Below the pieces are notes generated by a model. That model did not search any database and had not been told where the DNA came from. It saw nothing but the letters and a program-made list of their open reading frames with translations. Source: Sandaracinaceae bacterium (GTDB lineage: Bacteria > Myxococcota_A > Polyangia > Polyangiales > Sandaracinaceae). From it: DNA of 64,000 bases. Below are positions 17,870 to 50,897 of this stretch, one piece after another; positions within the stretch are counted from its first letter, which is position 1, and each line of letters opens with the position of its first letter. The stretch is from assembly GCA_019637095.1 (NCBI GenBank), contig JAHBWG010000049.1:1-64000 (forward strand). Reading direction: 5' to 3'. The translations under genes and the position numbers were made by a program.

Positions 17870-18397
17870 ATGCGGACCTCCTCGACCGCCGCGCTGCTCG
17901 TCGCGCTCCTCGGCCTCGCCCCCGCCGCGGCGCGCGCGGACGTCGAGGGCGTCTTCGCCCTCGAGACGGGCCTCTCCATCGCCGAGCCCTCGCTCGTCGT
18001 CGGCGTCGAGGGCGGCGTCCGCCTCGACCGCCAGTGGACGTTCCTCCTCGAGATCGACTGGAACCCGTGGTTCTCGATCGAGGGCGCGGTCGTCCACGAG
18101 GGCGCGCTCAACATCGGCGTCGGGGTCGAGCACATCTACCAGGACGGGCTCCTGCGCTCGGCGCTCTTCGTCGGCACCTCGACGCTGCTCTACCAGACCG
18201 CGCTCGACGTCCCCGGCACCACCGGCCCGTTCGTGGACTTCGTCCCGATCTCGGTGCGCGTCCCGCTCGAGGGCGACGTCGTCACGCTCCGCATCGACCC
18301 GGTGAGCATGCACCTCTTGGCCCCGGTGCTCTCGGGGATCCCGCTGATCCGCTACGAGTTCCGCCACGTCCTCTCGATCGAGCTCGCGGGCCGCTGA
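17870..18397 (+). CDS. Secreted envelope protein, possible small beta barrel
   Basis: The 175-residue protein has a clean signal peptide (MRTSSTAALLVALLGLAPAAARA). Alternating hydrophobic strands follow: VEGGVRLDRQWTFLLEIDW, NPWFSIEGAVVHEG, LLRSALFVGTSTLLY and YEFRHVLSIEL. The pattern suggests an outer membrane or periplasmic beta structure. No family was recognised. It diverges from the phospholipase-like gene. Its stop codon is followed within two bases by the five-hairpin repeat element, which may end the transcript. The ATG at 17870 directly precedes the signal peptide. Confidence 0.65.
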   Translation: MRTSSTAALLVALLGLAPAAARADVEGVFALETGLSIAEPSLVVGVEGGVRLDRQWTFLLEIDWNPWFSIEGAVVHEGALNIGVGVEHIYQDGLLRSALFVGTSTLLYQTALDVPGTTGPFVDFVPISVRVPLEGDVVTLRIDPVSMHLLAPVLSGIPLIRYEFRHVLSIELAGR

Positions 18398-18398
18398 G

Positions 18399-18545
18399 TC
18401 TTCGGAGGGGTTGTTCCAACCCCTCCCCCCATGCGGCAAAGCCGCATGGGGCCCCCCACCCGAGGCGAACGCGGCGGAGCCGCGTTCGACCCCATCGCGG
18501 GGCGATGGGGCCCCCTCGACCGACGCCCGTCGCTGCGCGACGGGC
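18399..18545 (+). repeat. Five-hairpin intergenic repeat, full copy 1
   Basis: Five perfect stem-loops stand in tandem behind the stop at 18397. Stem arms are 18404-18412/18418-18426 (9 bp, loop GTTCC), 18427-18437/18441-18451 (11 bp, loop AAA), 18466-18475/18479-18488 (10 bp, loop GGA), 18490-18498/18502-18510 (9 bp, loop GGG) and 18525-18533/18537-18545 (9 bp, loop TGC). The same order, spacing and mostly three-base loops occur inverted at 49961-50102, with compensating changes in the stems. It is a REP- or BIME-like element. Roles in transcription termination, mRNA 3' protection or transposition are possible. The remainder of the spacer, 18546-18643, holds only faint similarity to the flank of the other copy. 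Confidence 0.85.
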
Positions 18546-18643
18546 TGGTCTCGATGGCGGGGCCTGCGCGCTCGCTGAGGATGCGAGCCGCGCGATGGGT
18601 CGAGGGTCTTCGAGCTACGGAAGCACCTCCGTGAGAGGACCGC

Positions 18644-37512: not shown

Positions 37513-40500
37513 TCAGCCCTTGAGCTGCGCGAGCAGCGCCGCCGCCGCCTCGTGGTTGGCGTCCTCCGCCTTCGCGCGCTCGAGCATGGAGATCGCCTTG
37601 CGGGCGTCGCCGGCGCGCGCGGAGATGTCCCCGAGGTAGTAGTAGACGTCCGCCTTGGTGATCCCGGCGTCGTCCGAGAGCTTCTGCAGGAGCAGCGCCC
37701 GGAAGGTCTTCTGAGCACGATCCATGTCGCCGCGGACCATGCACAGCCGCCCGAGATCGCGCAGCACCACGACGTTGGTGAGGTCGACCTTGAACGCCGC
37801 GTCGTAGGACTCCATCGCGCCGTCGAGGTCGCCCATCGACTCCTTCGCGCGGCCGAGGCGGTGGTGGTACACGGCCACCTCCTTGTTCCGGCGCGCCCCG
37901 TAGCTCGCGACGATCTGCTCGAGCACGGGGATCGCGTCGCCCTGCCGCCCTGCCGCGATGTAGAGATCGCAGAGCGGCAGGAGCACGTCGCGGTCCTCGG
38001 GGTCGAGCTGCGCGGCCCGCTCGAGGTATTGCGCCGCCGAGCCCGGGTCGGACAGCGGCCCGGAGTAGAGGTCGGCGATGCGCTTGAGGAGCTTCACCTT
38101 CTCCGCCGGCGCCTCGGTCTCCTCCTCGTCCATCGCGAGCATCATCGCGAGCTGGTCGGGCTGCTCGTTCTTCTCGTAGTGCGCCTTGAGCCGCTCGCGG
38201 CTCTCGCGGCTCCCGCCCGACAGCTCGTAGGCCCGGCGGAGCGCCGCCTCCGCGCGGGCGGCGTCGCCGAGGCGCTCCGCCGCGAGCTCGGCGGCCTCGT
38301 ACGCGGTCGCGACGGCTTCGTCGTCCGCCTGCGCCGCGCCGAGCCGCTCGAGCACGCCGAGCGCGGCCTCCCAGTCCTCGCCGCCGCGGTGGATCGCGAG
38401 CAGCGCGCCGAGCGCCGCGACGTGGTGGGGGTCGTGCTCGAGCACGCGCTCGTAGATCTCGACCGCGCGCGCCGGGTCGCCGCGGCGCTCCGCCTCGACC
38501 ACGGCGAGGCGCAGCAAGAGCGCGAGCCCCTCGCCCTCGCCGGCAGCGTGCTCGATGCGCCGCTCGAGCAGCGCGACGAGCTCGTCCCACTCCTCACCGC
38601 TCGTGTGCAAGCGCTCGAGCTCGTCGAGCGCCTCCGCGTTGTTCGCGTCCTCCTCGAGGATCTCGCGGAGCTGCTCGATCGCGTCGTCGCGCCGCCCGAA
38701 GCGCGACTCGGCGAGCCGCGCCAGCCGCACGCGCGCGGCGATGCTCTCCTCGGGCGTGCGCGCGATCTCGAGGCGCCGCTCGACGAGGGCCTCGAGATCG
38801 CTCCAGCGCTCGGCGCCCTCGTAGAGCACCTCGAGCGCGCCGATCGCGTCGAGATCCTCCGGCGCCTCGTCGAGCGCCCCCTGCCACGCGGAGATGGCGT
38901 CGGTCACGCGCTCGAGCGCGGCGTAGGTCCCCGCGAGCTGCTTGCGCAACCCGAGCCGCACGCCGGGATCCATCTCGACCTCGACGCGCGTCTCGAGCAG
39001 ATCGCACACGCGCTCGTGGTTGCCCGCGCCGGCCTCGAGCCGCACGAGCTGGTCGAGGGCGAGCGGGTGGCCCGAGTCGACCTCGAGCACCTTCTCGTAG
39101 CACCGGATCGCGAGCGAGGGCTCGTGGAACGCGGACTCGGCGAGCGCCGCGGCCTCGATGAGCCGCGCCTTCTTCGCGTCTTCGTCGTAGTCCACGTCCG
39201 CCCAGTGGACGAGCGCCGCGACGAGCGCCTTCTCGCGGCCGGCGACGCGCAAGAGCTCGACGAGCTGCTCGTGGGCCTCCGACGCGTCCTGGTCCGCCGC
39301 GATGGCGCCGCGGTAGCGCGCCTCCGCCGCCTCGACGTCGTCGAGGGCGTCGCGGTACCAGCGCGCCGCGCGCAGGTTCAGGTCGCGCACGAGCATCCCG
39401 TCGAAGTCCTCGCCGCCCGCCTCGAGGACCTTCTCGATCAGGCCGCGCAGGCTCCCCCAGCCGCCGTCGGCGAGGGGCGCGAGCCGCTCGAGATCCGACG
39501 CGAGCTGCTCGTCGCGCGGATCCATCTCGAAGGCTCGGCGCAGCGCCTCGAGCGCGCGCGTCGCGTCGCCGAGCTCCGTCTCGAGCACCTGCGCCTGATC
39601 CTGGAGGAACCGCACGCGCTCACCGTCCGTCTCGGCCAGGCCGATGCGCACGTCGTAGAGCGCGGCGATCTTCTCGGTCGCCCCCGTCTCGCGGTAGACG
39701 GGCTCGAGCACCTCGACGACGTCCGCCGCGAGCGTGTCGTCCTCGAGGAGCGCCTCCATCGCGCTCACCGCGCGCCGCTCCGTCGGGTCTCGGTCGAGCA
39801 CCTCGCTGAACGCGCGGAACGCGCCCGCGAGGTCGCCGAACTGCTCCTGCTTGAGCGCGCCGACGCGAACGAGCAGCTCGCTGCGCTCCGCCGGATCCAT
39901 CGCCGCCGCGACGCGGCGCTCGAGGATCTCGCCGAGCTCCGGCCAGGCCTGCAGCTTGGTGTAGAGCCGATCGAGCGCGGCCAGCGCCGCCTCGTCGTCG
40001 CCCGCTTGCTCGATGGCGCGCGTGTACGCCTCGACCGCGCGCGCGTCGTCGCCGAGGTGCGCCTCCGCGATCGCCGCGAGGCGCCCGTAGAGCGCGCGCG
40101 CCACCTCGGGCTCGAGGACCGACGACGCGCGCGACGCGAAGGCGTCCGCCGCGCGATCCCAGCGCCCCAGCTCGGCCGCGAGCCGCTCGATGTCGTCCGC
40201 CGTCGCCTCGTCGGACGCGTCCTCGCCGAGCGCGCGCACGTACGCGTCGAACGCCGCGGCCCGGTCGCCGCGGCCGCGCTCGTGCACCTCGGCGAGGCGG
40301 CGCAGGCCCAGGCGCTTGTCCTCGGGGTCGTAGGCCGCCTGCGCCTTCCCCGCGAGCACCTCGGCGAGCTCGTCCCACCGCGCCTGCGACTCGAGGAGCG
40401 GCTCGACGATCTCGGCGGCCGGCTCGCGGTAGTCGTCGAGCCGCCCGATGCGCAGGAGCGCCTGGATCGCGGGCTCGAACGCGGGATCGAGAGAGAGCAC

Positions 40501-43500
40501 GTCCTGATAGGTGGAGAGCGCCGTCAAGACGTCGTCCATCTCGCGCTCGAGGACCTCACCCGCCCGGTAGAGCAGGCGCACGCGCGCCGCGACGTCCTCC
40601 TGCATCCCCGCCTGCAGCCGCAGGTTCTCGAGCAGGTCGGGCCACTGCGCCTCGCGCTCGTAGAGCCGGGCGAGCGCCTCGATCGCGGTCAGCTGATTCG
40701 GGTCGTCGTCGAGCGCGCGCTGGTAGGCGTCGATCGCCTCGTGCGGCTGTCGGAGGTGGACCTCGTTCAGGTGACCGAAGCGGAGCGCGAGCGCGACGCG
40801 GGTCTCCGGATCCTGCTCGGCCTCGAGCCGGCGGCGCAGGACGTCCGCGAGCTGCGCGTGGTCGGCCGCCGCTTCGTAGAGCCGGTCGAGGGCCTCGAGC
40901 GCGTACTCGTCCGTCTCGTCCTCCGCGAGCGCGGCGCGGTACGCCTCGATGGCGCCCGCCGGATCGCTCAGCAGCTCCTCGAGGACCGAGCCAGCGCGCT
41001 GGAGCAGCTCGCCGCGCTCCTGCGGATCGTACGAGCGCTCGACCTTGCGTCGGAGCACCGCGACGAGCCCGCGCCAGTCGCCGACCATGGTGTGGAGCGA
41101 CTCGAGCGCGTCGAGCGGCGTCGGGTCGTCGGGCTCGACCTCGAGCAGGCGCTCGTAGGTCTCGATGGCGGAGCGCGGATCGCCGCGCATCTCGTCGTGG
41201 ACGCGCGCGACCTGCGTGAGCAGCTCGGCCTTGACCGCGGGATCCTCGGCCGACTTGAGCGCCTCCTCGTACGCGGCGACGTGCGAGTCCCACGTGCCGA
41301 GCTCCTGCGCGAGCCGGTCGACCTGGCCGCGCACCTCCTGGTCGTCGGGCTGCGCGGCCAAGGCGCGCGCGTACGCGTGGAACGCGAGCTGGCGGTCGCC
41401 CGCGCGCTCCTCGTGGAGCTCCGCGATCATCGAGAGCAGCCGGACTCGATCGAACGTCTCGTCGGTGGTGGCCACGCGCGCTTCGTAGATCGCGATGCGT
41501 TTGCGCCACTGATCGGTCGCGCGGTAGATGGGCTCGAGGATCTCGATGATGCGCGCCTGGTGCTCGGGCGCCTGCACGAGCTGCTCGAGCGCGGTCACCG
41601 TCTCGACGTGGTGCGGATCGACCTGGGTGACCTCCTCGAAGACGTCGATGGCGCCCGACGCGTCCTCGAGGCGATCGAGCAGGACGCGCCCGAGCCGCAG
41701 CTTCAGGTCGCTCGCGATCGGCTCGTCGCCCCACAGCTCGATCTGGTGGCGCAGGTGGTCGGCGAGCTCCGCCCAGCGCTCTTGGCGGACGAGCAGCTCG
41801 TCGAGCGCCGCGATCGCGTTGGCGTCCTGGCCGTCGATCATGAGGATGTCGCGCTGCGCCTCGATGGCGCGGTCCGGCTGCTCGAGCTCCTCCTCGAGCA
41901 GCCTCGCGCTCTTGCGCAGGAACGCGATGCGCTCCTCGTCGGACTCGGCCGCGTCCGACTGCTCGCGGTAGAGCCGCAGGAGATCGTCCCAGGCGCTCTG
42001 GCGCTGGTACACGGACTCGAGCGCGATGAACGCGTCGTGGTTCGACGGGTCGAACCGGAGCGCGCGCGCGTACTGAGGCGCGGCCTTCGCGAGATCGCCG
42101 ACGCGCTCGTCGTAGAGCTGTCCGGTGAGGAGCGCGAGCCGCGCGGTGTCCTCGTCGTCGCCGCCGATCTCCTCCAGCACGTCGCGGTAGATCTCGGCGA
42201 GCCGATCCCAGCGCTCGAGCACGCGCGCGAGGCGCGAGAGCGTCTCCCAGGTCGACGCGTCGCGCGGGTCCTCGCGGAACAGCCGCGCGTACGACTCGAG
42301 CGCGCCGTCGAGGTCCTCGAGGTAGTCCTCGTGGATCTGGCCGAGGCGGGTGAGGTGGGCCTTGCGCTCCTCGAGATCGGTCTCGGCGGCGAGCCGCGCC
42401 TCGATGCACGCGGTGACCCGCGGCCAGTCCATGCGCTGGAGGAACACGGGCTCGAGGATCTCGGCGGCGCTCGCGCGGTGCTCCTCGTCCTCCATCAAGC
42501 GCTCGAGCGCGTCGATGGTCGGCTGGTGCGAGACGTCCAGGTCGCGCGCCTCGCGGAACTGCTCGATCGCGCTCCACGGATCCTCGAGCCGCTCGAGCTG
42601 CGTCTTGCCGAGCCGGTAGCGCACCTCGACGGGCTCGCCGACGCCGTGCTCGAGCATCCGCTCGTAGTGCGAAGCGAGCTCGTTGTAGCGCTCCGCGCGC
42701 GCGTAGAGGCGCTCGAGCCCGTCGTACGCGGAGCGCGGCTGCGTCTCCGCGAGCGCCTGCTCGAGGCAGTCGATCGCGTTGGCGAGCTCGCCGGTGTGCT
42801 TCTCGCCGATCTCGGCGCGACGCAGCAAGAGCGGGGCGCGCGCCTCCGGGGTCTCGGCGAGGTCCGTCTTGCGCCGCAGCACGTCGAGCAACGCGGGGTA
42901 GTCGCCGGCGGCGTCCGTGAGCGCCTCGAGCGCGTCGAGCGCCCCCGTGTGATCGGGGCGCGTCTCGATCACGTTCTCGTAGTAGGCGCGGGCGAGCGCG
43001 GCGTCCCCGAGCCGCTCGCGGGCGACCTCGGCGACCTCGGCGTACACCTCGACCTGCAGGTCCGCGTCCATCACGTCGGGCCCCACCTCGCGCAGGAGCG
43101 CGACGTAGTCGGCCCAGCGCGCGCTGTCGCGCGCGAAGCGGCCGAGCTCGCGGAGCATGTCGCCGAGGTCGTCCTCGGCGAGCCCGGCGCGGATCGCGCG
43201 CCCCTGGAGCTCGAACGAGCGGCTCGCGTCCTGCAGGCCGAGATCGGCCACCTCCGCCGCGCGGCGCAGCGACTGGTAGCGCTCGAGCGGATCCTCGCTC
43301 TCGGCGCGCACGAGCAGGGCCTCGAGCAGCGCGGGGTAATCGGCGCGCGCCTCGTAGTGCGGCACGAGCACGCGCGCGGCCTCGATGCGCACCTCGATCG
43401 GCAGCGCCGGCGGGGGCGGCGGCACGCTGGCCGCCGGCGCCTCTTCGCCCTCCGCCAGCGTGTCGCGGCCGCCCTCGTCGGCGGGCGCGCTGCCGTCGGA

Positions 43501-46500
43501 GCTCATCACCTCGCGCAGCGACTCGATCGCGCCCTCGTGGTCGGGAACGAGCTCGAGCACCTCCCCGTACGCCTCGACCGCGCGCTCCACCTCGCCGAGG
43601 TAGCCGCGCATGATCTCGGCCATCTGGTAGCGGACGGCCGCGCGCACGGGGGCGCGCTCCGCCATCTCGAAGACCATCTCGGCGACCTGCAGCAGGTCGT
43701 TCCAGCGCTCGGCCTGCTCGTAGAGCCGCGAGAGCGCCCCGAGCGTCTCGGTGTCCGTCCCGAAGCGGGAGAGCACGTCGTTGTACGCCGCGATCGCCTG
43801 GTCCGAGTCCTCGAGGTGCTCCTCGTAGATCGCGCCGACGCGCCGCGCGATCGCGCGCTGCTCGTCGGGGTCGGTGACCGCCGCGTCGCGCGCGCGCAGG
43901 ACCTCGATGAGATCGGTCCACGCGGACGTCTGCTCGAGCAGCCGCTCGAGCGCGCTCATCGCGTCGAGATCGCCGGGATCGATCTCGAGCCGCTCCCGGT
44001 GCGCGGCGATCGCGCCGGGCACGTCACCCAAGAGCTCCTCGCGCAGATCGGCGAGGCGCACGAGCAGCCGGCCGCGCGTGTCCGGGTCCGTCTCGAGGCG
44101 CACCTGCAGCGCGAGATCCTCGCCGAGCGCGGCGTGGTCGCCCTTGGCGAGGTGGATGCGCTCGAGCGCGCGCGCCGCCTCGAGCAGCAGCTCGGGCTCG
44201 TCCGGGCCCGCGGCGATGAGCCGGCGATACGCCGCCTCCGCGGGCCCGGGCTCGCCGACCGCCTCGTCCCACACCTGCGCGAGCTCGAGGAGCAGCTCGC
44301 ACACGAGCGCCCCGTCGCCCTCGCTCTTGGCGATGGCCTTCTCGAGCACCGCCGCCCGCTCTCGCTCCGCGTCGCGCATGCGCGCGAGCCGCGCGAGCTC
44401 CTCGCGGACGAGGGACTCCGCGGGATCGATCTCGACCGCCGCGGCGATCGAGCGGAACGCCGCCGCCGGATCGTGGAGGCGATCCTCCTCGAGGCCGGAG
44501 ATGCGCGTGAGCAGCGCCACGCGATCGGGCACCGCCTCGAGCTCTTCGAGCTGCACCCGCAGCGTCTGGACGAGCTCGGGCCAGTCCCCCCGGTCCTCGT
44601 AGATCGGCGCGAGGAGGCGGGCGCAGCGCTGCCGCTCCGAGGGCACCGAGATCAGCCGCTCGAGCGCCTCGCGCGCGTGGCGGTGGCTCGGCTCGCGCTC
44701 GAGCACCTGCTCGTAGCAGTCGACCGCCGCCGAGGGACGGCCGAGCCGCTTCTCGTGCAGCACGCCGAGGCGCTGCGTCAAGCCGACTTGCTCGTCCGGG
44801 TTGGCGCGATCGAGCTCCTCGCGCAGGAGGCCCACGAGGTCCTCCCAGCGCCCGGTGCGCTCGTACAGCCGCTCGAGCGCGCGCCGCGACGCCGAGTGCT
44901 CCGGATCGAGCTCGAGCACCTGCCGGTGCGCGCTGATCGCCGCCTCGGCGTCGTCGGTGAGCTCCTCGAACAGGAAGCAGACCTGCAGGAGCAGGTCGAG
45001 CTTCGCGCCGGCGTCCATCGTCTCGGCGATGCGGCGGTCGTAGAGGACCTGGAGCTCGGACCAGCGCTCCGCGTTGGTGTAGAGGTCCTTGAGCGCCCCG
45101 AACGCGGCCTCGTCGAGCGGATCGTTCGCGAGCACCTTGCGGTAGAACGGCTCCGCGTCGTCGGGACGGCCGAGGACCACGTCGTAGAGGTGCGCGACCT
45201 TCGCGGCGAGGGCCGACTGATCCGCCGGCTCGAGCGCGCCCATCGCGGAGCTGAAGGCGGCCGCGAGGGCCTCGTGCTCGTCCGCCGCCTCGGCCGCCTC
45301 GATCACGCGATCCTGGAGATCGACGTTCGCCGGGTCGGCGAGGAACGCCGCCTCGAGCGCGCCGTACGCCGCCTTCGCGTCGCCGATCGTGCCGGCGAGC
45401 TCCGCGTATCGGACGCGCAGCGCGCGCTGCTCGTCGGGATCTTCGGTCGCGGCGAGCCGCTGCTCGAGGATGCCGGTGAGCTTCTCGTACTGCCCCGTCG
45501 CCTCGTAGACGCGCTCGAGCACGAGCCGCGCGTCGGCGGCGAGCGCTTCGTGGCCCACGAGCGCCTCGAGGCCCGCGACCGCCCTCCCCTCGTTCGGGTG
45601 CGTCTCGACGACCTCGGCGAACGCGATGAGCGCGCCGGCCGGATCCCCGAGCGGGCCGGCGAGCGTCTCACCGAGGCGCAGCGTGAGGGCCGCGCGCTCG
45701 GCGTCGTCCTGCGCGAGCCCGCGCCGCCGCTCGATCACCGCCGCGACCTCTTCCCAACGCTCGCCCGCGACGCAGAGCCGATCGAGCGCGGCGAGCGCCT
45801 CGCGATCCGACGCGTCCTCGTCGAGCACCTGGCGGTAGCGCGCGGCGGCGCTCTCGGCGTCGCCGAGGGCCTCCTCCTCGACGCGCGCGAGGTCGAGCAG
45901 GTATTCGCGCCGCGTGGCCTCGTCCGGCGCGTGGCTCACCCGCGACAGGAGCAGCCCGCGCAGCTCTCGGTGCGCGCCCTCGCCGCGGTAGATCCGCGCG
46001 AGCGCGTCCGCCGCCTCGGTGTCGTCGGGCTGCGCGTCGAGCAGCGCGCGGAGCTGCGCGACCGCCTGATCGGTCCGCCCGAGCCGCTCGCCCGCGAGCG
46101 AGGCGACGCGCCGGCGCAGCCACGCGCGCTCCTGCTCCGCGCCGACCTCGTCCTCGATCCGCGCGAGCCGCGCGAGGTAGACCTCGACGAGCGCCTCGTG
46201 GCGCCCGGCCGCGTTCGCCGCCTGCTCGAGGGCGGCGCGCGTGTCGGGATCCGTCGGCGCGATCGCGAACGCGCGCGCGGAGTACTCGTAGGCCGCGCCG
46301 TCGTCGCTCAGGCGCGTGGTCGCGAGCCGCCGCAGGGTCGCGAGGAGCTCGAGGCGCGCCGCGTCGTCCTGCGCGCGGCGAAGCAGCACCTCGTGGAGCG
46401 CGGGCAGCCGGTTGTGCTTTCCTTCGCCTTCGTAGATCGGGATCAGCGCGCGCGCGGCCCGCTCGTTGTCCGGGTCGGCGGCGAGGACGCGCTCGTAGGC

Positions 46501-48804
46501 CCGGAACGCGCGGTTCCGGGACTGGAGCTCGTTCTCGTAGATCTCGGCGGCGCGGAAGCTGAGCTGGATCTTGGTGGCGTCGTCCTTCGCGCGATCCGCG
46601 ACGTTGCCGAGCACGTCGACGAGGCCCTCGTAGTCCCCCGCCTCGGCGTAGAGCGCCTCGAGGCCCTCGAAGTCGCTGGCCGCGAGGAACGTCTCGCGCA
46701 GCGTGCGCAGCGCGCGCCCGTTCTTCGGATCGAGGTCGAGGATGCGCTTCCACGCGCTCGCCGCGCGGAGCGTGTCCTCGAGGTGCTCGCCGTAGATCAC
46801 GCCGAGCTTCGGCAGCAGCTTGAGCTGCTCGGCGGGATCCGACGCCGCCTCGTCCACGCGCCGCTCGAGGACCTCCGCGAGCGTGCTCCAGTCCTTCTCG
46901 CGCTCCGCCAGCTTCTGCAGGTTGTCGAGCGCGTCGGGGTGCTCCGGCGCCTGCTCGAGGATCTCCTTCCAGATCTGGATCGCGTCCGCGTGCCGGTGCA
47001 GGCGCTTGCCCGCGAGATCGGCGAGCTCGAGCTTGTGCTCGAGGCGCGCGGTGGGGTCGCTCGCGAGCCGCGCCTCCTTGAGGAGCACCTCGTAGAGGTG
47101 CGTCCACGCCCGCTTCTTCGTGTAGATGTCCTTGAGCGCCTTGAGCGCGCGGCGGTTCTCCGGCTCGAGCGCGATCACCTGCTCGAGCGGCTGCGTCGCC
47201 TGGTTGTAGTTGGCGAACCGCTCGATCCAGAGATCCGCGACGCGCAGGTAGAGCTCGACCCGCTCGACGGGATCGCTCGCCGCGTCGGCCTGCTTGGTGA
47301 GCACGCCGATGAGATCGTTCCAGCGCCCGGTGGCCTCGTAGGTCTTCGCGAGGGCCCCGATCGCCTCGTGATCGCTGGGGTCGAGCTGGAGGATCGCGTT
47401 GTAGGTGTTGATCACCATCACGTCGAGCCCGAGTCGGTCTCGATAGACGGGCAACAGCTCGCGCAGCAGCGCGACCTTGCGGGCGGGCTCGTCCTCGGGG
47501 ACCGCGTCGACCTCCGCCTTGAGCACCTCGACGAGCGCGTTCCACTTCTCGCTGCGCTCGTAGAGCCCGCGCAGCTCGCGCGGCGCCTGCGCGTTCTTCG
47601 GGTCGTGCCGCAGGACCGTCTTCCACGCGTCGATCGCGCGCTCGTCCTGGCCCGCGAGCGTCGCGGCCTCGGCGAGCTCGATCGCGAGCGCGAGCCGCTG
47701 GTCGTCGCCCGACGCGCCGCGCTGCGCGTCGGTGAGGATCTTGACGAGCTGCTGCGGGTCCTCGTCGTCGGCGTAGTAGGCGCGATAGAAGTCGAGCATC
47801 CCCGGGTGGCCCGGGTCCATCTTGCGCAGGCGCGCGAAGTACGGCTCCGCCTCGGCGGGAGACTCGCGGAAGCGCCAGTGCACCATCCCGAGCTGCAGGA
47901 GCACGCCCGCCTCGTCGTCGAGCTTGTTGCGCGCGCGCAGCGCGTCCTCGTAGAGCGCGACGAGCCGATCCCAGTCCTGCGCCTCCATGTAGTGGCCCAC
48001 GAGCCAGCTCAGCGAGCGCGCGTGGTTGGGATGCAGCTCGAGGATCCGCTCGTAGGTCGCGGCCGCGCGCGCGCGGTCGCCGAGCGCCTTCGCGAGCACA
48101 CGCGCCGCGCGCACGAGGAGCTGGACCTTCTCCTCGCGCTCCGCCGCCCCGTCGGCGGCCTGCAGCAGGACGGTCGCGAGCTCCTCCCACTTCTCGCGCG
48201 CGCTGAGCACCTGCGCGTAGAGCCTCGCGGCGCGCGCGTCCCCTCGCGCCGCCTCGAGCGCCGCGCGGAAGAGCGCGTCGACCTGCTTGTCGCGGCCGCG
48301 GCCCTTGTACTTCCACACGAGGCTCGCCGCGCTCACGAGCAGCGAGCTGCGCAGCGTCGGGTCGCTCGCGCTGTCCGCCTCGTCGAGGAAGCGCTTGACG
48401 ATGTCGCCCCACTTCGCGGCGGTCTGATCGATCTGCGCGATCTGGTCGGCGAGGTCGTCGTCCCCCGGCCGCAGCGCCAGCGCCGCCTCGAACGCCTCCT
48501 TGGCGGCGGCGTCGTCGAGGAGTTCCTCGCGGCGGACGCGACCGAGCTCCTCGTAGAAGGTCGCGGCGCGATCGGGATCCGCGCTCGCCGACAACTTCGC
48601 TTGCACTTCGAGGATCTTCGCGACCGCGCGGTACTCCGCGCGCGCGTCGTGGCCGTGTCGCGCGAGCTCGAGGAGGCGCTCCGCCTCGGCGTCGAGCGCG
48701 ACCGCCCCGTTCTCTGCGAGCGCCCCGATGGCCGAGAGGGCCTCGAGGTTGTCGGGGTCCTCTTGAAGCGTGCCGAGTAGGTGCGAGACGTTTTGGGACG
48801 CCAT
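37513..48804 (-). CDS. Giant tetratricopeptide-repeat protein (3763 aa)
   Basis: This single frame of 11.3 kb has no signal peptide or membrane helix. From about residue 40 to the end it is built of a helical unit that recurs roughly every 72 residues, about fifty times. Each unit runs from a Trp-x-x-Leu start (WNDLIGVL, WTHLYEVL, WSTLAEVL) through a variable helix. It continues to L-G-x-hydrophobic-x-E-x-x-L, then D-x-x-x-A-I-x-A-Y/W-x-x-hydrophobic-L, a D/E-P turn and A-L-x-x-L. This is two TPR-like hairpins per unit, so the chain should form a very long superhelix that serves as a protein scaffold. Its partners are unknown. The ATG at 48804 has AGGGAG ahead; a GTG one codon upstream is possible. 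The aminotransferase gene follows after 6 bp. Confidence 0.9.
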   Translation of the reverse strand: MASQNVSHLLGTLQEDPDNLEALSAIGALAENGAVALDAEAERLLELARHGHDARAEYRAVAKILEVQAKLSASADPDRAATFYEELGRVRREELLDDAAAKEAFEAALALRPGDDDLADQIAQIDQTAAKWGDIVKRFLDEADSASDPTLRSSLLVSAASLVWKYKGRGRDKQVDALFRAALEAARGDARAARLYAQVLSAREKWEELATVLLQAADGAAEREEKVQLLVRAARVLAKALGDRARAAATYERILELHPNHARSLSWLVGHYMEAQDWDRLVALYEDALRARNKLDDEAGVLLQLGMVHWRFRESPAEAEPYFARLRKMDPGHPGMLDFYRAYYADDEDPQQLVKILTDAQRGASGDDQRLALAIELAEAATLAGQDERAIDAWKTVLRHDPKNAQAPRELRGLYERSEKWNALVEVLKAEVDAVPEDEPARKVALLRELLPVYRDRLGLDVMVINTYNAILQLDPSDHEAIGALAKTYEATGRWNDLIGVLTKQADAASDPVERVELYLRVADLWIERFANYNQATQPLEQVIALEPENRRALKALKDIYTKKRAWTHLYEVLLKEARLASDPTARLEHKLELADLAGKRLHRHADAIQIWKEILEQAPEHPDALDNLQKLAEREKDWSTLAEVLERRVDEAASDPAEQLKLLPKLGVIYGEHLEDTLRAASAWKRILDLDPKNGRALRTLRETFLAASDFEGLEALYAEAGDYEGLVDVLGNVADRAKDDATKIQLSFRAAEIYENELQSRNRAFRAYERVLAADPDNERAARALIPIYEGEGKHNRLPALHEVLLRRAQDDAARLELLATLRRLATTRLSDDGAAYEYSARAFAIAPTDPDTRAALEQAANAAGRHEALVEVYLARLARIEDEVGAEQERAWLRRRVASLAGERLGRTDQAVAQLRALLDAQPDDTEAADALARIYRGEGAHRELRGLLLSRVSHAPDEATRREYLLDLARVEEEALGDAESAAARYRQVLDEDASDREALAALDRLCVAGERWEEVAAVIERRRGLAQDDAERAALTLRLGETLAGPLGDPAGALIAFAEVVETHPNEGRAVAGLEALVGHEALAADARLVLERVYEATGQYEKLTGILEQRLAATEDPDEQRALRVRYAELAGTIGDAKAAYGALEAAFLADPANVDLQDRVIEAAEAADEHEALAAAFSSAMGALEPADQSALAAKVAHLYDVVLGRPDDAEPFYRKVLANDPLDEAAFGALKDLYTNAERWSELQVLYDRRIAETMDAGAKLDLLLQVCFLFEELTDDAEAAISAHRQVLELDPEHSASRRALERLYERTGRWEDLVGLLREELDRANPDEQVGLTQRLGVLHEKRLGRPSAAVDCYEQVLEREPSHRHAREALERLISVPSERQRCARLLAPIYEDRGDWPELVQTLRVQLEELEAVPDRVALLTRISGLEEDRLHDPAAAFRSIAAAVEIDPAESLVREELARLARMRDAERERAAVLEKAIAKSEGDGALVCELLLELAQVWDEAVGEPGPAEAAYRRLIAAGPDEPELLLEAARALERIHLAKGDHAALGEDLALQVRLETDPDTRGRLLVRLADLREELLGDVPGAIAAHRERLEIDPGDLDAMSALERLLEQTSAWTDLIEVLRARDAAVTDPDEQRAIARRVGAIYEEHLEDSDQAIAAYNDVLSRFGTDTETLGALSRLYEQAERWNDLLQVAEMVFEMAERAPVRAAVRYQMAEIMRGYLGEVERAVEAYGEVLELVPDHEGAIESLREVMSSDGSAPADEGGRDTLAEGEEAPAASVPPPPPALPIEVRIEAARVLVPHYEARADYPALLEALLVRAESEDPLERYQSLRRAAEVADLGLQDASRSFELQGRAIRAGLAEDDLGDMLRELGRFARDSARWADYVALLREVGPDVMDADLQVEVYAEVAEVARERLGDAALARAYYENVIETRPDHTGALDALEALTDAAGDYPALLDVLRRKTDLAETPEARAPLLLRRAEIGEKHTGELANAIDCLEQALAETQPRSAYDGLERLYARAERYNELASHYERMLEHGVGEPVEVRYRLGKTQLERLEDPWSAIEQFREARDLDVSHQPTIDALERLMEDEEHRASAAEILEPVFLQRMDWPRVTACIEARLAAETDLEERKAHLTRLGQIHEDYLEDLDGALESYARLFREDPRDASTWETLSRLARVLERWDRLAEIYRDVLEEIGGDDEDTARLALLTGQLYDERVGDLAKAAPQYARALRFDPSNHDAFIALESVYQRQSAWDDLLRLYREQSDAAESDEERIAFLRKSARLLEEELEQPDRAIEAQRDILMIDGQDANAIAALDELLVRQERWAELADHLRHQIELWGDEPIASDLKLRLGRVLLDRLEDASGAIDVFEEVTQVDPHHVETVTALEQLVQAPEHQARIIEILEPIYRATDQWRKRIAIYEARVATTDETFDRVRLLSMIAELHEERAGDRQLAFHAYARALAAQPDDQEVRGQVDRLAQELGTWDSHVAAYEEALKSAEDPAVKAELLTQVARVHDEMRGDPRSAIETYERLLEVEPDDPTPLDALESLHTMVGDWRGLVAVLRRKVERSYDPQERGELLQRAGSVLEELLSDPAGAIEAYRAALAEDETDEYALEALDRLYEAAADHAQLADVLRRRLEAEQDPETRVALALRFGHLNEVHLRQPHEAIDAYQRALDDDPNQLTAIEALARLYEREAQWPDLLENLRLQAGMQEDVAARVRLLYRAGEVLEREMDDVLTALSTYQDVLSLDPAFEPAIQALLRIGRLDDYREPAAEIVEPLLESQARWDELAEVLAGKAQAAYDPEDKRLGLRRLAEVHERGRGDRAAAFDAYVRALGEDASDEATADDIERLAAELGRWDRAADAFASRASSVLEPEVARALYGRLAAIAEAHLGDDARAVEAYTRAIEQAGDDEAALAALDRLYTKLQAWPELGEILERRVAAAMDPAERSELLVRVGALKQEQFGDLAGAFRAFSEVLDRDPTERRAVSAMEALLEDDTLAADVVEVLEPVYRETGATEKIAALYDVRIGLAETDGERVRFLQDQAQVLETELGDATRALEALRRAFEMDPRDEQLASDLERLAPLADGGWGSLRGLIEKVLEAGGEDFDGMLVRDLNLRAARWYRDALDDVEAAEARYRGAIAADQDASEAHEQLVELLRVAGREKALVAALVHWADVDYDEDAKKARLIEAAALAESAFHEPSLAIRCYEKVLEVDSGHPLALDQLVRLEAGAGNHERVCDLLETRVEVEMDPGVRLGLRKQLAGTYAALERVTDAISAWQGALDEAPEDLDAIGALEVLYEGAERWSDLEALVERRLEIARTPEESIAARVRLARLAESRFGRRDDAIEQLREILEEDANNAEALDELERLHTSGEEWDELVALLERRIEHAAGEGEGLALLLRLAVVEAERRGDPARAVEIYERVLEHDPHHVAALGALLAIHRGGEDWEAALGVLERLGAAQADDEAVATAYEAAELAAERLGDAARAEAALRRAYELSGGSRESRERLKAHYEKNEQPDQLAMMLAMDEEETEAPAEKVKLLKRIADLYSGPLSDPGSAAQYLERAAQLDPEDRDVLLPLCDLYIAAGRQGDAIPVLEQIVASYGARRNKEVAVYHHRLGRAKESMGDLDGAMESYDAAFKVDLTNVVVLRDLGRLCMVRGDMDRAQKTFRALLLQKLSDDAGITKADVYYYLGDISARAGDARKAISMLERAKAEDANHEAAAALLAQLKG

Positions 48805-48914
48805 CACTCTCCCTGAAACCGATTCCCCGAAGCGGCGGGCGCCGATCGGATGGGAACGCCAAAAAAGCCAGCGACTCCAAGCAGTTGAACGAGACCAACC
48901 CCCGAAGGGCCCCG

Positions 48915-49044: not shown

Positions 49045-49782
49045 ATGCGCCCGTCCCGCCGCACGCTCCTCGGCCGCTTCGCGGGCGTCGCGCTCGCGTG
49101 CCTCGCCGCCGCCTCGCCGGCGCGCGCGCAGTCGCTCGCGCACTCGTACGAGACCTGGCTCGCGTTGTTCGCGCACGGCCCGCTCGCCGGCGACCTCTGG
49201 CTCTGGGTCGACGTCCAGCCGCGGCTCTACGAGCGCCTCGAGCCCCAGGCGGTGCTCGTGCGCCCCGGCCTCTCCTGGCGCGTCACGCCCGAGCTCTTCC
49301 TCACCGCGGGCTACGCGTGGACGCCGAGCTGGAGCCGCGGGAGCGACGAGGAGCGGGGCTGGGGCGAGCTCGACTTCGTCGACGAGCACCGGAGCTGGCA
49401 GCAGGGCCTCTACGCGGTGACCGATCCGGCGAGCGGGCTCGCCGGCCAGGTGCGCGTGCGCCTCGAGCAGCGCGCCCGCACGACGGGCGAGCCCGACGTC
49501 GGCGTACGGCTGCGCGTCTTCGCGCGCGGCCAGGTGCCGATGACGCACGCGCGCGACGTGCTCGTCGTGCTCTGGAACGAGTCCTTCGTCGCGCTCAACG
49601 ACACGAGCTGGGGCCAGCGCGGGGGCTTCGATCAGAACCGGCTCTTCGCCGGGCTCGGCTGGCAGGTGATCGCCGGCCAGCTCCGGCTCGAGCTCGGCTA
49701 CCTCAACCGGTGGAGCGTCCGGCCGGGCGTCGACCCCGTCGTACACGCCGCCGCGCTCAACGCGTTCGTCGCGTGGCGGTAG
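49045..49782 (+). CDS. DUF2490-like outer membrane protein
   Basis: The 245-residue protein has a signal peptide with twin arginines (SRRTLLGRFAGVALACLAAASPARAQ), which could be a Tat or a Sec signal. The mature part has barrel-type strands: LWLWVDVQPRLYERLEPQAVLVRPGLSWRVTPELFLTAGYAW, EHRSWQQGLYAV, RVRLEQRART and ENRLFAGLGWQ-like segments near the end (QNRLFAGLGWQVIAGQLRLELGYLNRW). The Trp/Arg pattern and length fit DUF2490, a family of uncharacterised outer membrane proteins. The ATG at 49045 is chosen because the signal peptide starts there. It diverges from the giant TPR gene, with a 240-bp spacer. Confidence 0.75.
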   Translation: MRPSRRTLLGRFAGVALACLAAASPARAQSLAHSYETWLALFAHGPLAGDLWLWVDVQPRLYERLEPQAVLVRPGLSWRVTPELFLTAGYAWTPSWSRGSDEERGWGELDFVDEHRSWQQGLYAVTDPASGLAGQVRVRLEQRARTTGEPDVGVRLRVFARGQVPMTHARDVLVVLWNESFVALNDTSWGQRGGFDQNRLFAGLGWQVIAGQLRLELGYLNRWSVRPGVDPVVHAAALNAFVAWR

Positions 49783-49786
49783 CCCC

Positions 49787-49898
49787 CGTCGACCAGCGCA
49801 CGCGACCGACGGCGCCAGTCGAGGAGGCCTCCCCGTTCTCCGAGAACGCAGTGTAGTCCGTCGACCAGCGCACGCGACCACGGCGCCAGTCGAGGAGG
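49787..49898. repeat. 72-bp-spaced direct repeat behind the DUF2490 gene
   Basis: A 41-bp unit at 49787-49827, beginning CGTCGACCAGCGCACGCGAC, recurs at 49859-49898 with one base missing. Between the copies is a small GTTCT/AGAAC hairpin (49835-49847) with a three-base loop. The block starts five bases after the stop at 49782 and leads into modules of the five-hairpin repeat. Confidence 0.8.
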
Positions 49899-49920
49899 GG
49901 TTGGAGTGCTCCTCCGAAGA
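49896..49920 (-). repeat. Isolated first module of the five-hairpin repeat
   Basis: Read on the minus strand this is TCTTCGGAGGAGCACTCCAA followed by CCCCT. It matches the start of the copy at 25582 and, with changes, the start of full copy 1 at 18399. It stands alone between the direct repeat and full copy 2. Confidence 0.6.
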
Positions 49921-49960
49921 CTCGAAGTCTGCACACGGCCGACGGCGCCGTTCGAGGCCA

Positions 49961-50102
49961 GGCCATCGCGCAGCGATGGCCGTTGGCCGAGGGGGCCCCA
50001 TCGCTCCGCGATGGGGTCGAAGGCGGCGAAGCCGCCTTCGCCTTGGGTGGGGGGCCCCATGCGGCTTTGCCGCATGGGGGGAGGGGCTGGAACAGCCCCT
50101 CC
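49961..50102 (-). repeat. Five-hairpin intergenic repeat, full copy 2
   Basis: This is the inverted counterpart of 18399-18545. In element order the stems are 50102-50094/50088-50080 (9 bp), 50079-50069/50065-50055 (11 bp), 50040-50031/50027-50018 (10 bp), 50016-50008/50004-49996 (9 bp) and 49981-49973/49969-49961 (9 bp). Loops are GTTCC, AAA, TTC, GGA and TGC. Compared with copy 1, four stem positions differ on both sides so that pairing is kept. It begins seven bases beyond the stop of the gene ending at 50109, in that gene's direction. Confidence 0.88.
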
Positions 50103-50108
50103 GCCAGC

Positions 50109-50897
50109 TCAGAACAGCATGATCGCGCCGGCCGCCGTGAGCAGGCCGAACGTCGTGAGGCCGACGACCTGGTGCACCGTGGCGAGCGCCTGGAGCGCCG
50201 CGAAGTCGTTGGCGCGGTCGAGCCCGAACCAGTCCTGCGAGATCGCGAGGCCGAGGAACAGCTGCGCCAGCATCCCGCCGAGGTGCGCCCAGCGGAGCAC
50301 CTTGTGCAGGCGCAGGTTGCTCGCGTACGCGCCGTCGCCTTGGTCGAGGTGATCGGGGTCGGGCATCGCGAGCGAGATCGTGAACGTCGTCGTGTAGAGC
50401 GCGGTCGTCGCGATCCACGACGCGCGGTGGACCCACGGCTCGCCCCAGCACTGCTCCTGGCCGAAGATCGCGTCGCCGCGCACGCAGCCCGAGTCCTCGA
50501 CGCCGCCGAAGAACCCGTAGAGGTTGTAGTACTGGAACATCCCGAGGGTGACCGTCGCGAGCATCGAGACCCACGTCGCGATCCCGAACGCGCGGTGCAC
50601 GGGCATCAGGTCGGCGCGCTGCCGGAGCTGCGCGGCGTACTCGTCGTTGGAGGTCTCGGCGGTCTGCCGAGGGGTGGGCACGGGCGCGGGCTCGGCACGC
50701 CGCGTCTGGACGGCGGGCGCCTCCTCGTCGGCGCCGGCGCCGTCGTCGCCCGCGTCGTCCTCTGCCGCGTCGGCGAGCTGAGCGAAGACCGGCGGGAAGA
50801 GGATCGCACCGGGCGGCGCGGCGAGGTCGCCGGGCGGCGGGGTGAGCGCGAAGCCGAAGATGGGCGTGGCGAGCGCGAGCGCGGCGAGCGGCGTCAT
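50109..50897 (-). CDS. Polytopic membrane protein with intramembrane histidines (cytochrome b561-like?)
   Basis: The 262-residue protein has an N-terminal signal-like segment and a Pro/Ala/acidic region to about residue 85. At least four hydrophobic helices follow. Histidines recur at helix ends or inside them: MPVHRAFGIATW, EPWVHRASWIATTALY, RLHKVLRWAHLGGMLAQLFLGLA and ATVHQVVGLTTFGLL. Such spacing can hold b-type haems, so a b561-like electron carrier is possible, but the family was not recognised. A Cys pair (GCVRG and QCWG) lies in a loop. The five-hairpin repeat follows the stop. Confidence 0.6.
   Translation of the reverse strand: MTPLAALALATPIFGFALTPPPGDLAAPPGAILFPPVFAQLADAAEDDAGDDGAGADEEAPAVQTRRAEPAPVPTPRQTAETSNDEYAAQLRQRADLMPVHRAFGIATWVSMLATVTLGMFQYYNLYGFFGGVEDSGCVRGDAIFGQEQCWGEPWVHRASWIATTALYTTTFTISLAMPDPDHLDQGDGAYASNLRLHKVLRWAHLGGMLAQLFLGLAISQDWFGLDRANDFAALQALATVHQVVGLTTFGLLTAAGAIMLF

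Follow-up and report, generated by a model that had tools for sequence, protein, structure and literature searches.

Bacterial repeats usually cluster loosely behind genes. The REP and BIME sequences of enterobacteria and pseudomonads are small GC-rich palindromes with many extragenic copies, often at the 3′ ends of genes, and in these respects the element described here is like them. A share of REPs lies within 15 nt of a stop codon, a second point of likeness, and REPs at this distance are reported to stall ribosomes in Escherichia coli (PMC12306157). The BOX repeats of Streptococcus pneumoniae offer a different parallel, being composite and modular, with a module number that differs between strains (PMC3049150). 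The accessible parts of the literature on myxobacteria, Polyangiales and stop-codon repeats, taken outside subscription journals, yielded no description of a stop-anchored five-hairpin repeat, and, in the available text of the Sandaracinus amylolyticus genome paper, repeats come up only where searches for CRISPR and for insertion elements are described (PMC5010890).

The locus analyzed here lies in a stretch of 64,000 nucleotides from a Sandaracinaceae bacterium (contig JAHBWG010000049.1), the whole of which we call the window. A gap of 326 bp (49783–50108) forms the entire interval between two convergent stop codons, in genes called by a home-made codon-score script rather than a published caller. 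A sequence-only reading had placed a composite repeat nest here, behind the DUF2490 gene (PF10677; 49018–49782, plus strand). The position was right and the anchor was not: the nest adjoins DUF2490 because that gene converges with a 262-aa gene without a Pfam family (50109–50897, minus strand), and it is the TGA stop of the latter (50111–50109) on which the nest is anchored. On the minus strand, this TGA is followed by the six-nt head GCTGGC, which forms the linker, then by five hairpins with 3-nt loops and a tail; the next unit opens with the head GTCTTC, keeps hairpin 1 in degenerate form and closes with a tail, and beyond it lie a hairpin in a further state of decay and a third tail. The gap holds the five-hairpin repeat once in intact form and twice as a degraded copy.

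The intact element (49952–50110, minus strand; head, five 3-nt-loop hairpins, ending CTCGA) is matched at 177.1 bits by R1, a covariance model built from 27 copies. Its hairpins, at 49961–50102, comprise h1 (50080–50102), h2 (50055–50079), h3 (50018–50040), h4 (49996–50016) and h5 (49961–49981, with an outer stem), and their perfect stems measure 9, 9, 10, 11 and 10 bp. The element's own tail begins at 49931–49957 (minus strand; repeat family D1, matching tails of other copies), where it overlaps the end of the core; this third copy of the tail sequence is 85% like the other two. The remnant unit (49894–49923, minus strand) consists of the head GAGTCTTC (49916–49923) and the degenerate hairpin 1 (49894–49915), with hairpins 2–5 missing. 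It is found as a second, weak R1 match (49800–49923, minus strand; 13.5 bits, E 0.002 with filters off), so that the stand-alone minus-strand module of the sequence-only reading, like its full five-hairpin element, is borne out. The tail of the remnant unit (49858–49898, minus strand) and that of the outermost unit (49786–49827, minus strand), which ends 3 nt from the DUF2490 TAG and so abuts it, are the second and first copies of the 41-bp direct repeat described earlier (families D2 and D3). The repeat resolves into an exact block of 22 nt and another of 19 nt, whose copies stand 72/71 bp apart, with one inserted base, and it is the tail of the element. The small hairpin noted between the copies is likewise present (49834–49848, strand unassigned), pairs in the predicted fold and is possibly a residue of the outermost unit's hairpin 1. 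A second full element lies elsewhere in the window (18396–18554, plus strand; linker GTCTTC), directly after the TGA of a gene called at 17870–18397.

A run of five such hairpins is not a product of chance. When 100 copies of the window were generated from a dinucleotide Markov model, stems of at least 9 bp with a 3-nt loop occurred on average 3.25 times per 64 kb, and there were never more than three inside 150 nt; the window itself holds 13, ten of which belong to the two five-hairpin elements. RNA folding z-scores of the gap are −6.2 (plus strand) and −8.1 (minus strand). Covariation shows that the pairing is under selection. Standard pairs fill 97.0% of the pair cells in an alignment of 83 copies, and two-sided changes occur at 28 of 51 pairs against a shuffle mean of 11.3 (0 of 500 shuffles equal), counts that lean towards structure as the alignment was fitted to the model; none of the sliding controls comes near these values. 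G-U pairs outnumber A-C mismatches by 67 to 39, 23 of the former falling in one pair (44 to 37 without it), and this test does not separate RNA from DNA hairpins. The unit as a whole comprises a short pyrimidine-leaning head, with the consensus GAGTCTNC before GGAGGGG in 27 copies, the five 3-nt-loop hairpins and the tail. In alignment A1, the common head and the start of hairpin 1 (GTTGGC-Y-GAGGGG) resemble an inverted repeat of the h4–h5 spacer (CCCCTCGGCCAAC); complementarity between the head (50103–50108 in the window) and this spacer would allow a long-range alternative fold.

The element is widely dispersed. A BLAST search with the spacer returned 52 matches in the genome to which the window belongs (9.25 Mb in 197 contigs), of which 40 span the greater part of the element, and R1 gave at least 128 matches at E 0.001 in the same draft genome (150 of 23,662 candidates scored). 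R1 also matched 10 of the 14 related genomes tried, and a core model of hairpins 1 and 2 with their C-rich spacer, built from 20 sequences, matched 56 of 289 genomes of the class; all copy numbers are lower bounds, with 40, 150 or 17 candidates scored per genome, and none of the genomes searched is of the same genus. Between genera, stem sequences vary while pairing is kept. Searches against Rfam returned no family, with weak matches falling far below the gathering threshold. Copies have a single orientation relative to the gene, and full copies in tandem, found with a constant junction at 6 of 86 places in the window's genome, share that orientation. We read the element as a dispersed, REP-like repeat family of 3′ untranslated regions. 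Another type of repeat, set apart by its hairpin 1 (GGAGGGCGCG or a similar sequence), occurs in one related genome (G001; L340, L341, L343, L344 and L345), where it is located behind a shared upstream sequence and mostly away from stops.

The most distinctive property of the family is its spacing from stop codons. Among the places matched by R1, 98 of the at least 128 were read and oriented and 86 scored at least 60 bits; setting aside the six tandem junctions left 80. A copy was counted as being in register if hairpin 1 had an in-frame stop of an ORF of at least 60 codons 4–16 nt upstream. This holds for 70 of the 80 non-tandem copies, and in 54 of these the distance is 6 or 7 nt. By comparison, 14,074 pairs of non-coding position and strand were taken from the window, of which 11.8% have a stop within range and 1.4% have one at 6–7 nt. 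Of the ten exceptions, one has its TGA at 6 nt behind a 57-codon ORF, two lie near contig ends (one TAG and one TGA, both at 6 nt), four are separated from the stop by an additional partial copy, one is spaced at 17 nt and two are weak matches (60.6 and 61.9 bits) lacking a stop. The 72 places that satisfied the first version of the rule all use TGA, with linkers of 6 nt in 27 and 7 nt in 30. Only 4 of 141 other TGA stops in this genome precede similar sequence, and these look by eye like decayed elements; the head is thus part of the element. In two further genomes, G001 and G006 (one and two contigs), 26 of 35 and 28 of 37 copies stand at stops with modes of 6–7 nt, among 35 of at least 39 and 37 of at least 70 matches read, the start of hairpin 1 being scored 2–3 nt early for sequences beginning GCCGG or GGCGG. 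The stops used there are TGA (46), TAG (5) and TAA (3), and the register therefore holds while the stop codon changes. Spacing is looser in other genera, where 6 of 14 (G072) and 3 of 7 (G007) copies are at stops, and in genus g6, where some copies follow a terminator-like hairpin with a T-tract or an SRP RNA rather than a stop; this counts against a stop-docked reading. One copy (L251 1002; G005:C48:19951) starts at the 3′ end of an SRP RNA, within its T-tract (RF00169, L251 916–1004); for a further copy (L216), the start falls in the T-tract that follows a terminator-like hairpin.

The stops themselves look native to the host genes. Ten host proteins were checked, several of them lacking a full-length family model, and isocitrate lyase, polyphosphate:AMP phosphotransferase, succinate dehydrogenase iron-sulfur protein and others end within a few residues of the NCBIfam model end. 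That the element supplies the stop was rejected, given these native C-termini, as was protein extension by UGA readthrough, given that 6-nt and 7-nt linkers occur at similar frequency and that stems carry frame-breaking indels. No common function was found among the host genes. Two element-bearing genes of the window's genome (L111 and L112, on C141 and C143) show encapsulin likeness, both below curated cut-offs: one resembles a family 2 encapsulin cargo of the polyprenyl transferase type, and the other weakly resembles a family 2B encapsulin shell. For the 262-aa gene, the only relative recovered, from one contig scan, is a 56% identical protein in a Polyangia MAG (L264); the search gave no orthologue of the spacer in its entirety. 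The L264 gene terminates at the same aligned residue with CTGA and carries no element. Downstream of it begins a protein resembling that of the window's giant gene (37513–48807, minus strand), and the locus has no DUF2490 match. Since L264 has neither, the element and DUF2490 are not common to both lineages. The giant gene is a 3764-aa ORF full of TPR-like repeats; the opposite strand of this DNA has a still longer open frame, probably an effect of high G+C.

How these observations fit together can be framed around translation termination. We consider it an even call that the nest is a local array of dispersed REP-like repeats in 3′ untranslated regions, with hairpin 1 abutting the terminating ribosome. 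With a stop codon in the A site, a hairpin 6–7 nt downstream is located at the ribosomal mRNA entry. The element would be transcribed together with its host gene, hairpin 1 would occupy this entry position on the terminating ribosome, and the series of hairpins might protect the mRNA 3′ end or tune termination or the fate of downstream RNA, a role modelled on that reported for E. coli REP elements close to stops. Copies would spread as DNA and persist mainly in the 6–7 nt register. In the window, an element beside the 262-aa gene may have been duplicated in tandem, after which the outer units would have lost hairpins 2–5 and, as a last step, the 41-bp tail would have been copied.

The base before the stop opens the way to a different account. 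C precedes TGA at 66 of the 72 places mentioned above, as compared with 72 of the 141 TGA stops among 158 other genes of the same genome (Fisher p 6e-10), and at all of the 25 best-scoring copies (linkers of 6 nt in 17, 7 in 4, 11 in 3 and 12 in 1). A purely ribosomal constraint does not predict this bias. It would be expected of a non-autonomous mobile DNA that targets CTGA, perhaps CTGAG, and inserts just 3′ of it in the manner of IS200/IS605, copies elsewhere having been purged and the RNA having no role. The fixed orientation of copies and the tandem junction, CTCGA-TGTCTTC, which resembles CTGA-GTCTTC, point the same way. Against it, the window offers 32 non-stop, non-coding CTGA sites beside 22 CTGA stops and almost no copies occur at sites of the former kind, and the TAG and TAA stops of G001 and G006 keep the register. 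No link to Y1/RAYT transposases was found: the core model is absent from 16 of the 17 Y1-gene loci read, with one copy about 0.7 kb away at the remaining locus, IS200-type copies have different ends by eye, and four element-bearing genomes (G001, G006, G002 and G043) gave no Y1 match. Neither these loci nor these genomes revealed a RAYT gene flanked by two inverted repeats. On balance, we hold CTGA-directed insertion to be possible, though doubtful. As a separate observation, two IS200-type element copies of the window's genome (L224 and L225, on C90 and C124) are identical over 658 bp, which suggests recent movement of these sequences.

A bolder proposal, which we regard as unlikely, joins mobility to the stop codon. 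Across the class, translation termination itself would read out the integration or retention of a family of small mobile repeats. Copies would land or survive only where hairpin 1 comes 6–7 nt past an in-frame TGA, TAG or TAA, the element being docked to the ribosome that terminates there; their spread might even pass through an RNA or a ribosome-bound step.

Strong GC-rich hairpins behind genes also invite the view that a multi-hairpin transcription terminator has been copied from gene to gene, and the g6 copies that follow a terminator or SRP RNA gene would suit it. No T-tract lies behind any of the hairpins, however (0 found at 49600–50300), and a terminator several nt after a stop is reported to be almost fully repressed by the ribosome in E. 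coli (PMC4824070). It is because of these two points, repression at short distance and the missing T-tract, that termination is placed lower, and we deem it quite unlikely. The downstream gene is co-directional in 36 of 67 cases and convergent in 31, and in both G001 and G006 one element is closely followed by the start of a co-directional gene, further points that speak against this view.

To the sequence-only reading, the nest also looked like a site of repeated insertion or slippage that might reveal growth of the element module by module. Comparison of relatives supports turnover of modules, which seems to proceed mostly by duplication and deletion, and does not support stepwise growth towards the five-hairpin form. 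In G005 and G008, which are 98–99% alike around one array, the array of G005 is longer by two partial units on the stop-proximal side, one of hairpin 1 alone and one of hairpins 1–2, a difference for which an assembly error is possible, as the G008 assembly is fragmented with contig ends in repeats. A second locus of this pair differs by a 22-nt module fragment and clustered substitutions. One orthologous copy in G001 and G006 differs by a 28-nt deletion between direct repeats, and another is intact in both. The alignment of orthologous spacers suggested as a check led to L264, the sole orthologous locus found, where the element is lacking and the sequence past the stop is too diverged to align as an insertion site; the module differences were seen at other loci. 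Nor did G008 provide a clean unoccupied site, since three insertion-site queries there gave one full-length match with the copy kept and two matches that ended inside the repeat or at contig ends. Of the three tails in the window, the outer two are almost identical and the inner one is 85% like them; the copying of the 41-bp tail is for this reason probably the youngest event. The lone module carries both head and tail and is hence better read as a full copy minus hairpins 2–5 than as an initial building block.

Such changes, including the deletion between direct repeats, together with the tandem partial units at stops, are what would be expected of a slippage or recombination hot spot without any role, at which hairpins stall replication and copies change by errors only. 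Slippage alone explains neither the dispersal to at least 128 places nor the stop register nor the compensated stems, and as the full account it is highly unlikely. That the gap locus encodes a fixed functional RNA is hardly credible: its structure is strong and conserved and some orthologous copies are common to G001 and G006, but it has no Rfam family, many near-identical copies are dispersed, L264 lacks the element, host genes share no function, and spacers are neither identical nor fixed between genera, identical spacers in distant relatives having been named beforehand as the mark of a fixed RNA.

If the array of REP-like 3′-UTR repeats with hairpin 1 abutting the terminating ribosome is the correct reading, a family held to stop codons with a precision of one or two nucleotides, spread over many unrelated genes in more than one genus, would constitute a natural library of structures set against the terminating ribosome. 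REP function would become testable in one group of organisms, and the question is raised of how a repeat could find the ends of reading frames.

Each of the known systems shares some of these features and departs from the element in others. Compensated stems are common to it and to REP/BIME sequences (PMC2817692). The element is unlike them in its five-hairpin unit with 3-nt loops, in the lack of a GTAG- or GTGG-type head at the hairpin foot (27 copies) and in having neighbouring units in one orientation without alternation. Its stop register is also tighter, with 54 of 80 copies at 6–7 nt as compared with the roughly 11% of E. coli REPs reported within 15 nt of a stop (PMC12306157). BOX, compared by description and not by sequence homology, varies in its inner boxB array, whereas partial units here start from the head, and the available text on BOX describes no stop register (PMC3049150). 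Intrinsic terminators likewise place GC-rich hairpins shortly after the stop, but they carry the T-tract that is lacking here, and the element stands at a spacing where E. coli ribosomes are reported to repress termination (PMC4824070).
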